Assembly (NCBI GenBank): GCA_012719495.1
Contig: JAAYAG010000100.1
Coordinates: forward strand, 1 to 64,000
Direction of reading: 5' to 3'
DNA length: 64,000 bases
Source: Bacteroidales bacterium
GTDB lineage: Bacteria; Bacteroidota; Bacteroidia; Bacteroidales; Prolixibacteraceae
Shown: one piece after another, positions 24,033-32,881 of the stretch
Position numbering within the stretch: position 1 is the first letter of the stretch
Layout: each line of letters begins with the position of its first letter
Position numbers and translations under genes: made by a program
The notes under the pieces: model-generated
What the model saw: only the letters and a program-made list of their open reading frames with translations
What the model was told of the DNA's origin: nothing
Databases searched by the model: none

Positions 24033-24422
24033 ATGTCGAAAGAATATACGAACGAATTCCTTGTTGATTTTGGCCCCGATGGTCAAAAACTTCTACCCGT
24101 TGTTACACAGGATTTTACTACCAAAGAAGTATTGATACTGTCGTTTATTAACCGTGAAGCATACGAAGAAACTGTTCGTAGCGGTTATGCAACATATTGG
24201 AGCAGAAGCCGTAACGAGTTGTGGAAAAAAGGCCTTACCAGCGGTGATATGCTGAGGGTGGAAGAAATTAGGGTAAACTGCGAACAAAATTCTTTCTTGT
24301 TCCTAGTTACTCCCGAAGGAAAAGGAGCATGCCATGCAAAAAAAGAAGGTGGACTGCCTTATCATTCATGTTATTATAGAAAAGTAGAAAAAAACGGTAC
24401 ACTTACTGTCACTGAAAAATGA
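24033..24422 (+). CDS. HisI-like phosphoribosyl-AMP cyclohydrolase, divergent subfamily
   Basis: A 129-residue HisI-fold protein. It keeps LPVVTQDFTTKEVLILSFIN-type architecture, Y-WSRSR-ELWKKG-TSGDML, and Cys83, Cys100 and Cys113. The DxDxD-type acidic metal motif of true HisI reads N82-C-E84-Q-N86, and the ACH...SC block is stretched (C100 to C113, against 7 residues in the classic form). Classical HisI opens the purine ring of phosphoribosyl-AMP in histidine synthesis. The substitutions make that uncertain here. No HisE domain is fused. The stop overlaps the hisG-like start by 4 bases, so the two are translationally coupled. Confidence 0.8.
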   Translation: MSKEYTNEFLVDFGPDGQKLLPVVTQDFTTKEVLILSFINREAYEETVRSGYATYWSRSRNELWKKGLTSGDMLRVEEIRVNCEQNSFLFLVTPEGKGACHAKKEGGLPYHSCYYRKVEKNGTLTVTEK

Positions 24423-25468
24423 GTAACTCAAAACTTACCATAGGAATGCCGGCAGGGTCGCTGGCAAACCCAACACGCGGAGGAAACTTAATTAAGCTTC
24501 TCGAAGATTCTGGTTTTAAAACATCTGGGTATGAGGCTGGTGGCCCGAGTGTGTTCAAGACAGTCAATTTCCTTTATGGATGGGACGGACGTCCTCAGGA
24601 ATTTAGCTCTCAGTTAGCCCTCGAGGAACTTGACGTAGCCATAGCTGGTGATGATTGGATTGAAGAACGGATTCTAGAATTCAAACTCGAATACAATACT
24701 CAAATTGATCTTCAGCGGGTGCTTCCGCTTAATCGGGGAGGAGTGAAGCTGGTTGGCATTGTGAAAGGCGATACAGAACTCGATACTACAGAAGCGTACT
24801 TGAACGATCTTACCGAAAAGCAAGACCTGATTGTGGTAGCTACCGAAATGCCTTATTTGGCTTTGAATTGGCTTCGGGGAGTTCTTCAGAAAATTGACAG
24901 ACTTGATGAATTCAACGATTTCTCTGTGCAGAAATATAAATCGCCTTCAAAAATTAAGAAAGGAGTTCTTATTTATGAAACCTGGGGCAAAACTGAATCA
25001 AAAGTTCTGAATGGAGGTGCAGATCTTGGGTTGGAGATTACACAATCGGGGAGTGCCATAAAAAATTATGGGCTGAAAATTTTGGAAACGGTATATACAT
25101 CTCAAACTAGTATATGGATAAATCCGACCCTAAAAAATAATGAAGAAAAGTGCGAGTTGTTGAACATGTTCTTGTTAAATATTTACGGATCGATTAACGC
25201 TGAAAACAAGGTGTTGGTAACATTCAATGTACCTAATACACATCGCGAAATAATCGAGAATTATCTAAACGAGAACAATCTTTTTGCCGACGAGCCAACC
25301 ATGAGTGTGGGTAAAACCTATACGGTATACAACATTCAGGTAGATACTTCAGGTAGCAAAGTTCCTTTGGCCATGGTACGTTACCAGTTGGCCAAGCTTG
25401 GTGCAACAAATATCGATACGCTCCCTATTCAGTCTTCAATTCAAAGTCTTGAGGCAATAAAGTTTTAG
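24419..25468 (+). CDS. HisG-like ATP phosphoribosyltransferase, divergent long form
   Basis: A 349-residue protein whose order of elements follows long-form HisG. There is an N-terminal phosphate-binding start (LTIGMPAGSL), a LDVAIAGDDWIEE strand matching the usual ADLGITGED, and a PRPP-loop region ADLGLEITQSGSAI (201-214) in place of the usual ETGxT. Residues about 245-345 resemble the regulatory C-terminal HisG domain (VLVTFNVPNTHREI, LAKLGATNIDTLPI). It is longer and more divergent than the classical enzyme. The overlap with hisI-like and the absence of other his genes here suggest a dedicated two-gene unit. Catalytic identity is inferred. Confidence 0.75.
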   Translation: MSNSKLTIGMPAGSLANPTRGGNLIKLLEDSGFKTSGYEAGGPSVFKTVNFLYGWDGRPQEFSSQLALEELDVAIAGDDWIEERILEFKLEYNTQIDLQRVLPLNRGGVKLVGIVKGDTELDTTEAYLNDLTEKQDLIVVATEMPYLALNWLRGVLQKIDRLDEFNDFSVQKYKSPSKIKKGVLIYETWGKTESKVLNGGADLGLEITQSGSAIKNYGLKILETVYTSQTSIWINPTLKNNEEKCELLNMFLLNIYGSINAENKVLVTFNVPNTHREIIENYLNENNLFADEPTMSVGKTYTVYNIQVDTSGSKVPLAMVRYQLAKLGATNIDTLPIQSSIQSLEAIKF

Positions 25469-25486
25469 AATGAGCATGATTATTAT

Positions 25487-25527
25487 AAAATTAAAAGAGC
25501 CATCAAAACGATGGCTCTTTTAATTTT
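25487..25527. terminator. Bidirectional terminator between hisG-like and tkt
   Basis: An 18-base-pair hairpin (25487-25504 with 25510-25527) with a 5-base loop, flanked by A and T runs on both sides. It serves the hisI/hisG-like unit on plus and the transketolase gene on minus. Confidence 0.9.
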
Positions 25528-27772: not shown

Positions 27773-30700
27773 CTATTGTATAATTATTTTATTGCATTGA
27801 TGGTATTTCCTGTTTTCAATATTAACAAAATAGAGCCCTTTGCTTAGGTGGTTCAATTCGATCTGAATCGTTTTATCCTCGGTTTGGGCTTTGTAAACAA
27901 CAACTCCTGAAGTGGTGGTAATCATTATTTTTGAGATGCCTTCAAACTGGTTCATATCGACAATAAATTGACCGTTATTTGGGTTCGGATAAATCTTTGC
28001 CTGTTTTTGAGTAATGGTTATTATTGTTGAAGTATCGGCAGTGATACTGATTGGCTCACTTTTTTCAGTTTCGAAATGTTCTATGCCCTGGCTTTTCTCA
28101 TAAAGGCAAAACGTATTATTGGTGGTAATATGGCCAAATAAATTACTGCCTTCTCTTGCATGAAATCCTGGCATAAACCGTATTGTTTTGCCAGCAATTA
28201 TTTCAACAGATGATGCACTTTCGAGGATGACATTTGTCTCATCCCCTGCTACGATTACTGTGTCGAGAGCATTAAAACAAGCGATGTTGGATTCGTGCAG
28301 TGTGGTGTCTGAAACTGCAAGTATCCTTGGCACAAGTCCTCCTTCTTCAGCCGATACTGTTATATCGTCGATTGCCCAGTACCATGCAAATTCGCCACAA
28401 TAGTTCCACTTGAATTGAACTTGCGACTGGTTAGCGAGTTCTCTAGTAAGATCAATGGTGTATTGTTCTGGGTTTTGTGTGTCTTTTCCCCATGTTTGCA
28501 ATGTATCCCATGATGTCCCGTTGTCGGTGCTATACGAGAGTGTTGCTATGCTAGGTTCATAAAAACTAAAGACATGACTAAATTCAAGAGAGATTTTTTC
28601 AGGTGCGTTTAGTTGAGAGAAATCAAACACTGGTGAAATCAAGTCGCAGTTTTGGATTCCTCCACTTCCGTAATTATCGCTATCGATAATAGCAAAACCG
28701 TTCTCGCTGGTGGATGTAGAAATAATTCGGTTCCGCGGATTATTAAAAGTCCAAATCTGGTTGTTTCCCACATGGTCGTCGATAGTCCAGCAAAAAGGAA
28801 GATGGGGTGCCGAGAAATCCTGTGTGTAAGGAAAGTTGATGACAGGGGTGCAATCATACGTAAATAGCTGTATGTCATCGATTGCCCATGATTCTGGATA
28901 ATTTCCGGTGTAGCTCCATTTGAACATTATTTGAGAATGACCGTATAATTGAGTTGAAAAAGTAGTAGAAAATAATTCGACAGACGAGGTTGAACTATCC
29001 CAATCCTTACTAGTAATCCATGTTTTTCCAGCATCCAAGCTGTAGTAAAAGGAAACAGAATTGCCATAGTCTTCTTCATAATATTCATGTTCAAAGCTTA
29101 TGATGATCGATGAATCTGCAATTGCACTAATATCAAAAATAGGAGATATTAACTCTGTATTTTGTCCGCTTCCAACTCCATATTCGTAGCTGCTGATTGT
29201 AGCAAAACCATTTTCACTGGTGGTCGAATTGAAATTGTATTCTTCAAGATCAGTGAAAACCCAGGTTTCATTGTTCCCTATATTGTCGGTTACCGACCAG
29301 CCAACTGGGAGTTCGCATATTGAAAAATCTTGAGAGTATGGGAAACTTAGATTGGTTAGCGCAGTGCAACTTTTACTACCGGAGTAAAATTCGGGCCTAT
29401 ACGACCATGCTTTGTAATAGTAATTAGTTCCGGGAATTAAACCAGAATGTGTAAAATTGGTGTCACTCCCGAAATACAAAATAGAGCCTCCACCCGGAAG
29501 TAAGTCGCCTGGTTCATAAATAACGCCGTCAACCGGTTCTCCAAACGAATCGGTATTCGAAAATGCAACCAAAACAGAATCATTGCTGAGGTTTCTTATC
29601 CATTCAACGTTAACATTTTGTGACGAAATAGCTTGTGCTTTCAATTCGTTAATACTTGATAGTTCCTGAATCACCTGAATAGTTATAGGCGTTTGACCAA
29701 TGGTTGAGACAGTAACAGTGGCCATGCGTTCAATATTTGTATGGTTGGCCTGGGCTGTAAAGATAAGCGAATCCGCTCCTCTACCTGCGTTCGGACTTAC
29801 GGTTAACCATGGTTGATCTGATGATGCTGTCCATTCTGTATGAGCTGAAAGCCACAACCGGGCTTGGCTCCCTTCTTCTGCATTTAACCTGACTTCTGGA
29901 AATTCTACGTAGAAATCGTATTCAATAATTTGAATGAAGTCTTCCCATTGGTCGGCAGTTTTATAGAGCGCCGAAGATCCGTAAGGAACATAAAGTTTAC
30001 AATTATTTTTATCTACTCCATCAAAAACAGTTTCGGAATTTATCAAATCAATCGGCACACTATTATCTACTTTAATCGAATCTAGATCAGAACAATAAGA
30101 AAAGGCATTACTCCCGATTGATGTAATTGATTCAGGAATTGTAACCGCAGTTAAGCCACAGCGGAAAAAGGTTTGGCTTTCAATTGTGCTCATCGATTCT
30201 GGTATGGTTACCGATGTTAAATTCCAATCTTCGGCGAAAGCTCCAACGCCAATGAATGTTACCGATGATGGAATTGTGATTGTATTTAATTCATAACATG
30301 ATGAAAACGCCTTATCACCAATTGAAGTTACTGACGACGGAATTTCAATTGTGGTTAACGAACCGCACTCATAGAATGCAAATTCGCCAATGGTTTGTAC
30401 AGAGGGTGCAATTGAAATTGATGCTAATTCTTGGCATTGATAAAATGTGTAATCATTAATAGCCGTAACTTTTGGAGGGATATTGACCGATAGTAATTTT
30501 TGACACATCTCAAAGGCATATTCTCCAATATATGTTATTGATGAAGGTAATGCTATTGTTTGAATATTAATACAATGACTGAATGCTTTTGGATTGATCG
30601 ATTTTACTGATGAGGGGATGGATATAGAGCTCAACCTGCTGCAATACCCAAAAGCACTTTCACCAATTATTCTTACTGTTGTAGGAACTGCAATAGAATT

Positions 30701-32881
30701 CAACCTGCTGCACCCATAGAACAAGTTCATACCGAGCTCAGAAATCGAAGCATTAATTGTTGCTGACTCTATACTAATACAGGCTTTGAACACAGCACTG
30801 CCCATAGAAGTCACTGAAGCTGGTATGTCAATAGAAGTCAGGTTGCTGCAATTTTCAAATGCGTTGTTTCCGATGATTCTTAATGATGTTGGAACCTGAA
30901 AAGACGTCAGGCTCTTACATCCCGAAAACGAAAATGCCCCAAGCGAAGTAAGCGACGAGTTTGAAACTACTGAAACCAAGTTGCTACACTCGTAAAAAGC
31001 ATAATTGTCAATTTGGCTTACTAATGGGCTTAGTGTAAAGCTTTTTAAATTTCGGCATCTGTAAAAAGCATTTCTTCCTATCGAGGTAATGGTTGAAGGG
31101 GGTGTTATTCTATATAAACTGTTTTTTCCCTGTAAAGTACCAGGGGTGCAGAAGGCATATTCTGGAAAGCTATTGGCAGGATAAAAAGAATTTGTTCCGG
31201 TTGTACCTAAAGTCCCTGAATATTGAACAATGTTTACTTCGTTTAAATCAAGCACAGAAAGCTCGGGCATACTGTCGCGCATGGTTTTGAAATCGCACGC
31301 GTTAATGGTGCCAATTAGCTTTAGGTTCGATATATTGTTTTTTTCTTCAGTACTTAACTCCTTGGATAGGTTCCCTGCCGAAACAGTTACTTCTTTAGGT
31401 AAACCCCATTGAATAAATTCGATGGTTTGCGAAGGTATTCCTGATGCCGAAACTGTAAGGTTGGCTCTTCTGTCTGTATATTCTGTATTTGCATTGGCCG
31501 TAAAAACGAGCGTATCATTACCAGTTCCATTTTCTGAGTTAACCGTTAACCATGCTGGTATTGAGTTAATTGACCATGACACATCAGAGTAGATAAAAAT
31601 AGAATCGCTATTCCCTTCCTCTGGGAAAACATCGGCATGCGACGAGGACAAATAAAAACCAGACCGATTAATTATGGTTGAAAAATTGCCCCATTGATTT
31701 GCTGCAGCATACATTTCTTTTGTCATGTATGGCACATATAAGGTACAAGAAGCATAATCAACACCATAAAAAACTTCAGGCGACAAACTTAAATTGATGG
31801 GATTGGGCGAATCAACGTAAATGGATGTTAAATTTGAGCAGTATCTAAAGGCTTGTTTGTTAATTGTTTGTATTGAGGAGGGAATCGTTATTGAAGAAAG
31901 ACTTGAACAATTGCCAAACGCATTATCACCGATACTGGTAAGCGTCGAAGGGAAAGTTATTGAAGCTAGTTCAACGCAATTGATAAAAGCAGCTCTTTTT
32001 ATTGTGGTTAATGTTGAAGGTAATACCACTGAAACCAAATCTCTGCAATTGAAAAAAGTTTCCTCTTCAATAGAGGTAAGGTTCGGGGGCAATTGAATTG
32101 ATGTGAGTAACATACATTGATAAAAGGCTCCCCGTCCTATGGCGGTTACAGTTGGTGGAATCGTCAATGAGCTTAAACTCTTGCAATTCATAAAAGCTTC
32201 TGGTCCAATTGTTACTACAGATTCAGGAATGGTATAGCTTCCTGATTTTGATGCGGGACAATGAATTAAAACTGTTTTGTCTTTATCGAACAATATCCCT
32301 TGATCACTTGAGTAATTCGGGTTGTTTGCATTCACTGTAATGGCAACCGGGCACCAAGAAAAACAATATGCTTCGATTATAGTAACCGATGAAGGAATGG
32401 TAAGCGTACTCAAACTGCTACACCCATTAAACGCTGAAACCTTGATTGAATTTAACGATGATGGAATGGTCGGAGAGGTTAAATTGTTGCAATTCATAAA
32501 AGCCCAGGCTCCAATCGAGATTATATTGTTTGGAAGAACAATGCTTTTAAGGCTTCCTTTCGAGTTAAATGCTGCTTCGGGTATTGTATGTATCGGGTAG
32601 GTTTGACTGCTAGAACCAGCTGTTCCTTGCGTCCCGGTATAAGACGCAACTGATGCATTGCTTATGTTGAGCACTGATAACACGGCCATGCTGTCGCGCA
32701 TGATTTTAAAATCCCTGGCATCAATAGTACCCGAAATTGTCAAATTCGTAATAGTCGATTTCTCTGATTTACTTAACGCTGAGGAGAGACCTCCTGCGCT
32801 GACACTAATGGTTTTTGATACTTGGGCTTGTAACGAAAGGGTAAGAAAAAGCAAACAAAATAAGGAAGTAAAATTGTTCAT
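27773..32881 (-). CDS. Giant BspA-type leucine-rich-repeat surface protein with T9SS domain
   Basis: A 1702-residue exported protein. Order: signal peptide (1-19), N-cap module (about 22-95), LRR_5 block (about 97-380, units of the TSITIPSSVTSIGDKAF type, about 23 residues each), BACON-like domain (about 407-490), a second N-cap module (about 494-584), a second LRR block (about 584-964), a second BACON-like domain (about 990-1073), a fibronectin-like domain (about 1075-1174), two MAM/jellyroll-like domains (about 1179-1343 and 1352-1510, both start FPY-QDFS), a beta 'coat-hanger' module (about 1519-1595) and a type A T9SS domain (KIYPNPNNGQF, 1629-1702). BspA proteins bind matrix or other bacteria; an adhesin role here is inferred. 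Confidence 0.93.
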   Translation of the reverse strand: MNNFTSLFCLLFLTLSLQAQVSKTISVSAGGLSSALSKSEKSTITNLTISGTIDARDFKIMRDSMAVLSVLNISNASVASYTGTQGTAGSSSQTYPIHTIPEAAFNSKGSLKSIVLPNNIISIGAWAFMNCNNLTSPTIPSSLNSIKVSAFNGCSSLSTLTIPSSVTIIEAYCFSWCPVAITVNANNPNYSSDQGILFDKDKTVLIHCPASKSGSYTIPESVVTIGPEAFMNCKSLSSLTIPPTVTAIGRGAFYQCMLLTSIQLPPNLTSIEEETFFNCRDLVSVVLPSTLTTIKRAAFINCVELASITFPSTLTSIGDNAFGNCSSLSSITIPSSIQTINKQAFRYCSNLTSIYVDSPNPINLSLSPEVFYGVDYASCTLYVPYMTKEMYAAANQWGNFSTIINRSGFYLSSSHADVFPEEGNSDSIFIYSDVSWSINSIPAWLTVNSENGTGNDTLVFTANANTEYTDRRANLTVSASGIPSQTIEFIQWGLPKEVTVSAGNLSKELSTEEKNNISNLKLIGTINACDFKTMRDSMPELSVLDLNEVNIVQYSGTLGTTGTNSFYPANSFPEYAFCTPGTLQGKNSLYRITPPSTITSIGRNAFYRCRNLKSFTLSPLVSQIDNYAFYECSNLVSVVSNSSLTSLGAFSFSGCKSLTSFQVPTSLRIIGNNAFENCSNLTSIDIPASVTSMGSAVFKACISIESATINASISELGMNLFYGCSRLNSIAVPTTVRIIGESAFGYCSRLSSISIPSSVKSINPKAFSHCINIQTIALPSSITYIGEYAFEMCQKLLSVNIPPKVTAINDYTFYQCQELASISIAPSVQTIGEFAFYECGSLTTIEIPSSVTSIGDKAFSSCYELNTITIPSSVTFIGVGAFAEDWNLTSVTIPESMSTIESQTFFRCGLTAVTIPESITSIGSNAFSYCSDLDSIKVDNSVPIDLINSETVFDGVDKNNCKLYVPYGSSALYKTADQWEDFIQIIEYDFYVEFPEVRLNAEEGSQARLWLSAHTEWTASSDQPWLTVSPNAGRGADSLIFTAQANHTNIERMATVTVSTIGQTPITIQVIQELSSINELKAQAISSQNVNVEWIRNLSNDSVLVAFSNTDSFGEPVDGVIYEPGDLLPGGGSILYFGSDTNFTHSGLIPGTNYYYKAWSYRPEFYSGSKSCTALTNLSFPYSQDFSICELPVGWSVTDNIGNNETWVFTDLEEYNFNSTTSENGFATISSYEYGVGSGQNTELISPIFDISAIADSSIIISFEHEYYEEDYGNSVSFYYSLDAGKTWITSKDWDSSTSSVELFSTTFSTQLYGHSQIMFKWSYTGNYPESWAIDDIQLFTYDCTPVINFPYTQDFSAPHLPFCWTIDDHVGNNQIWTFNNPRNRIISTSTSENGFAIIDSDNYGSGGIQNCDLISPVFDFSQLNAPEKISLEFSHVFSFYEPSIATLSYSTDNGTSWDTLQTWGKDTQNPEQYTIDLTRELANQSQVQFKWNYCGEFAWYWAIDDITVSAEEGGLVPRILAVSDTTLHESNIACFNALDTVIVAGDETNVILESASSVEIIAGKTIRFMPGFHAREGSNLFGHITTNNTFCLYEKSQGIEHFETEKSEPISITADTSTIITITQKQAKIYPNPNNGQFIVDMNQFEGISKIMITTTSGVVVYKAQTEDKTIQIELNHLSKGLYFVNIENRKYHQCNKIIIQ

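Follow-up and report, generated by a model that had tools for sequence, protein, structure and literature searches.

The question raised by this locus is what a hisI-like gene and a hisG-like gene, here called hisI′ and hisG′, do as a pair standing apart from the other histidine genes. The window – by which we mean the whole 64-kb stretch of DNA analysed – is contig 90 in a Prolixibacteraceae assembly totalling 4.19 Mb and 99% complete. The initial annotation described overlapping HisI-like and 349-residue HisG-like frames lying outside a histidine operon. This holds good: both proteins score above their Pfam cut-offs, the frames share four nucleotides, and tblastn of the window returned no additional his genes. 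The features are as follows.

24033..24422, forward strand: hisI′ (PRA-CH-like), 129 aa; open reading frame, Pfam and AlphaFold match
24419..25468, forward strand: hisG′ (divergent long-form HisG), 349 aa; open reading frame, Pfam and AlphaFold match
24419..24422, forward strand: ATGA overlap of the hisI′ stop and the hisG′ start; from the sequence
25489..25525, forward strand: perfect 16-bp inverted repeat with an AAAAC loop and AT-rich flanks; read from the sequence

The ATGA overlap may well couple translation of the two genes, which in relatives are spaced from -4 to +152 bp apart. The inverted repeat 3′ of the pair is likely to act as a terminator; a consensus terminator scan gave it no score. 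Elsewhere in the window (27773-32881, reverse strand) we noticed by eye a protein of 1702 aa containing numerous BspA-like leucine-rich repeats and, at its C-terminus, a type-9-secretion-like sequence.

Does the genome have canonical hisG and hisI elsewhere? The answer is yes for hisG and no for hisI. Two HisG domains are present, that of HisG′ and an ordinary one encoded on contig 99, together with a single PRA-CH domain, that of HisI′ itself; step three of histidine synthesis thus has no candidate here other than HisI′. The genes hisG, D, C, B, H, A and F are all on contig 99, as is a free-standing hisE of 102 aa. Bacteroidales relatives that lack the pair have their HisI domains in frames of at least 200 aa, as in HisIE, and in pair-only Bacteroidales the PRA-PH (HisE) frames measure about 99-123 aa. 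Where the pair occurs, HisIE has lost its HisI half, and the window genome still possesses the older HisG/HisE route. Its his operon also contains a gene that reads as a DUF1016/PDDEXK-like nuclease, placed between hisD and hisC (L004:12258-13283), and the cluster is interrupted by other non-his genes as well.

Relatives were sought by scanning one genome per species with two peptide patterns, a query that will have missed more distant members. The scan gave 66 loci encoding HisG′ (51-84% identical), with hosts among the Bacteroidota, Spirochaetota, Myxococcales MAGs, Acidobacteriota, Planctomycetota, Hydrogenedentota, Sumerlaeota, Kiritimatiellae and Gynuella. HisI′ lies directly upstream of HisG′ at most of them. 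The patchy spread of the pair, combined with its high identity, suggests dissemination by horizontal transfer. Clustering of neighbours over the 66 loci found nothing common across phyla except the pair itself, on which ground a linked alternative pyrophosphatase was rejected as a candidate; viral carriage was likewise rejected, viral contigs holding no relative of HisI′.

The initial annotation offered two readings of the pair: a second phosphoribosyl pathway, making or opening another purine-like ribotide, or an unusual histidine branch. Several features sit comfortably with the first. The pair adjoins no ordinary his genes within the flanks examined (in G085 the contig also bears hisC and hisB, at a distance of about 9 kb), the metal motif of HisI′ is altered, and a few genomes, such as that of Mariniphaga sediminis (G093), carry a full ordinary HisG and HisIE besides the pair. 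The pattern of replacement speaks against it. HisI′ occurs in 40 of the 50 HisG′ genomes examined and is the sole HisI in 37 of those 40 (the exceptions being G091, G093 and G098); no other intact HisG accompanies HisG′ in 26 of the 50, nor in 15 of another 16 genomes, making 41 of 66 in all, although most of these genomes are MAGs and their lineages are not independent counts. HisB (IGPD), an enzyme specific to histidine synthesis, is retained in 48 of the 50. Replacement can even be seen in progress: in G075 a truncated remnant, immediately ahead of hisD, is all that is left of the ordinary hisG, and hisE is gone, while D, C, B, H, A and F are intact. Because ordinary HisI and HisG are replaced in genomes that keep HisB, the pair acts in histidine synthesis, and a separate pathway strikes us as very improbable.

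In HisI′ itself, the match to Pfam PRA-CH (PF01502) is strong (E 8.9e-25; 86.8 bits against a gathering score of 27), yet the protein falls below the NCBIfam equivalog cut-offs for hisI and hisIE. Its AlphaFold model matches 1zps with a TM of 0.75. It shares with the PR-AMP cyclohydrolases HisI and HisIE the 1zps fold, a zinc site of three cysteines plus the catalytic histidine, and the SRS and WxKG substrate motifs. The zinc-site residues C83, C100, H101 and C113 are invariant in an alignment of 28 sequences, and C83, C100, C113 and H101 are the equivalents of C126, C142, C149 and H143, the residues to which ligand roles are assigned in the plant enzyme (PMC8102479). The differences are equally consistent. 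DCDxD has become NCEQN and GETS has become GLTS, and the protein is free-standing and paired with HisG′. The magnesium-binding aspartate triad, called universally conserved in PR-AMP cyclohydrolase (PMC8102479), is replaced by N82, E84 and N86, of which the first is invariant and the others nearly so; and the usual C-x6-C spacing (by alignment with 1zps) is extended by six residues to C100-x12-C113. Both the N82-C83-E84-Q85-N86 motif and the long cysteine spacing had been pointed out in the initial annotation; conserved as they are throughout the subfamily, they do not represent decay. HisI′, being the sole HisI of 37 genomes, is in all likelihood a working enzyme whose metal site is altered. 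We also considered, and rejected, the notion that it is a Zur-type zinc-independent HisI paralogue: its zinc residues are kept and no link was found. Published Zur-type HisI paralogues likewise keep these residues (PMC2770081).

HisG′ departs further from its ordinary counterpart. It exceeds the cut-off of Pfam HisG (PF01634: E 3.4e-17; 63.3 bits against a gathering score of 25.5) and falls short of the NCBIfam hisG equivalogs (45.9 against 75.75 for TIGR00070; 28 against 40.05 for TIGR03455). According to the AlphaFold model (pLDDT 89.7), residues 2-342 adopt the full three-domain fold of long-form ATP-PRT, matching 2vd3 with Z 25.8 and rmsd 2.4 over 284 residues, the next unrelated fold scoring 11.9. 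A PRPP-type loop and a C-terminal regulatory-type domain complete the likeness to the long form (HisG-L, TIGR00070 + TIGR03455), from which it differs in length – 349 aa against about 285-300 – and in several motifs. The initial annotation had singled out TQSGS in place of ETGxT. The sequence does differ there, but as a lesion the change was overstated: the PRPP-type loop is kept with only its last T altered, and the ordinary HisG of the same genome reads SSGGT at this position. More telling are two other substitutions, KGR to AGS and GSVE(I/L) to WGKTE(A/S)K. In the window protein AGS replaces KGR and WGKTESK replaces GSVE(I/L)xx; the KGR position reads AGS or SGS, without the arginine, in all 26 divergent HisG′ sequences aligned. 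In the ATP-PRT of P. arcticus, R32 (of KGR) and R56 (of SRKL) help the departure of PPi (PMC9734150); the SRKL arginine is also replaced in HisG′.

Calling HisE at a PF01503 match of E < 1e-12, we found it absent from 34 of the 41 genomes in which HisG′ is the only intact HisG, and present in all 25 that have a second, intact ordinary HisG (in one of these, G066, as a weaker match adjoining hisG); Fisher's test, which ignores ancestry, gives p 3e-12. The HisE-less HisG′ genomes comprise Hydrogenedentota, Myxococcales, rumen and termite-gut spirochaetes, several Bacteroidales and a Kiritimatiellae MAG, and so span at least five lineages. Among the seven HisG′-only genomes with HisE, four look genuine (G076, G081, G082 and G336); of the others, G080 is incomplete, G091 mixed, and in G084 the contig stops at hisB, just where hisG would be expected next. 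This supports the reading of the pair as an unusual histidine branch and makes it more precise: loss of HisE is almost confined to genomes in which this HisG class stands alone.

As a control we took 45 spirochaetes without HisG′ and compared them for HisG motifs and HisE presence only. HisE is found in 33 and missing from 12. All 12 of the HisE-less spirochaetes (loci L266-L275, L284, L305 and L306) have a HisG with KGS and WGATE(A/V)K, a combination seen in none of the 33 with HisE, which read KGR or AGR (in the 32 that are readable) and GSVE-like or GATEVFP. This KGS-type HisG resembles HisG′ in having GS for GR, WG(A/K)TExK and an RxQE stretch, and in the absence of HisE; its profile is also the nearest to that of HisG′ (E 2.8e-22, against 2.2e-15 for ordinary HisG). 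It is unlike HisG′ in its length of about 300 aa, in keeping the lysine of KGS and the SRxY arginine, and in its ordinary-looking spacing. The position of Pa R32 is thus a serine in both HisE-independent classes, with R56 lost in HisG′ only. In the tree HisG′ forms a clade of its own with support of 100/100, borne on a very long branch, and the KGS class likewise forms a clade (97/96), the tree leaving their joining unsettled. Four other genomes (G158, G178, G183 and G238) carry a KGS + WGATExK HisG and a KGR HisG together.

The link between HisE and HisG class is thus well supported by genome content, and we think it probable that HisI′ and HisG′ constitute an alternative module for entry into histidine synthesis, disseminated horizontally, whose HisG needs no HisE and most likely converts AMP and PRPP to PR-AMP, which HisI′ converts to ProFAR. 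HisG′ would join PRPP and AMP to give N1-phosphoribosyl-AMP and PPi, skipping both PR-ATP and the pyrophosphohydrolase; HisI′ would open the adenine ring of PR-AMP to give ProFAR, ring opening perhaps pulling the first reaction; and the ordinary HisA-F-H-B-C-D steps would follow. AMP is proposed because this is the simplest chemistry without HisE that still feeds an ordinary HisI. Ten genomes have HisG′ without HisI′; most of these have an ordinary HisI elsewhere, its DCDxD site normal in those read, which implies PR-AMP as the shared intermediate. AMP is known to inhibit ordinary HisG by binding in the active site (PMC3896937), making a shift from inhibitor to substrate plausible. Our search of the open-access literature, subscription papers being outside it, found no description of a HisG that uses AMP. 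Points against this explanation are the seven HisG′-only genomes that keep HisE, the make-up of the sample, mostly MAGs whose lineages are not independent counts, the apparent retention of the ATP gamma-phosphate arginine discussed below, and the altered aspartate triad of HisI′, given its reported universality.

Two other accounts keep the pair within histidine synthesis. The first holds that HisG′ is an ordinary ATP phosphoribosyltransferase and that an unrelated or MazG-like pyrophosphohydrolase has taken over hydrolysis of PR-ATP. The fold of HisG′ is indeed that of ATP-PRT, and Pa R73, the arginine proposed to touch the gamma-phosphate of ATP, is apparently kept as R58 when aligned through KGS-type HisG, so that the residue changes in HisG′ are no proof of lost ATP binding. 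An hhalign comparison with ordinary HisG had hinted at loss of this arginine; we dropped the argument for AMP built on it once the KGS-type intermediate placed R58 there. Weak, MazG-like PF01503 matches do occur in most HisE-less genomes. They are, however, just as common in genomes with HisE and so leave unexplained why HisE loss follows HisG class (34/41 against 0/25 for HisG′; 12/12 against 0/33 in the control); moreover, HisI′ is the sole conserved neighbour that travels with HisG′. We regard this account as unlikely. The second supposes that ADP is the substrate of HisG′ and that HisI′, its metal site being altered, acts on PR-ADP. ADP is accepted by short-form HisG (PMC10795190), and HisI′ has lost two of its three aspartate ligands outright, has glutamate as the third, and bears the six-residue insertion. 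But Myxococcales and Hydrogenedentota have HisG′ beside an ordinary DCDxD HisI without HisE, and the HisIE of A. baumannii does not process PR-ADP (PMC10242683), which argues against ADP as the substrate. We judge this version improbable.

Extending the proposal that HisG′ uses AMP, we lean slightly towards the view that the phylogenetically wide HisG class marked by GS and WGxTExK is an AMP phosphoribosyltransferase forming PR-AMP in one step, that it defines a HisE-free pathway with one step fewer, and that the window pair is its mobile two-gene form. Going by genome content, the pair stands in for the conventional first three steps in many genomes, with HisE absent, which points to a shorter entry to the pathway. 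Histidine biosynthesis has been described as running through identical enzymatic steps in every organism (PMC8305728); for genomes without HisE there has so far been either no explanation or an appeal to a "minimized" HisIE. The same study noted that HisE is missing, and HisG of a variant kind, in Chlorobi and some Rhodothermota, for which it proposed a minimized HisIE; set beside the published description, that variant is possibly of the KGS type, and an explanation based on HisG fits these data too. A short signature in HisG predicts the presence of HisE and makes the question of HisE-less genomes directly testable. Predictions of auxotrophy would be corrected, since HisI′ and HisG′ both fall under the curated naming cut-offs, and the use of AMP rather than ATP would give engineers another point of control and a changed energy cost.

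Two minor observations concern HisE in spirochaetes. In G077, G086, G081 and G076 (L221, L223, L229 and L238) it is fused behind an N-terminal stretch of about 90 aa that lacks cysteines and by eye resembles a decayed HisI; as a degenerate HisI this stretch was rejected in G077, G081 and G086, where Pfam PRA-CH fails to match it even with the threshold at E 10. In G261, G305, G265 and others (L279, L280 and L307-L314), whose HisG has KGRI and GATEVFP, HisE domains lie in unusually long frames of 434-548 aa, possibly representing fusions of HisE to another enzyme.
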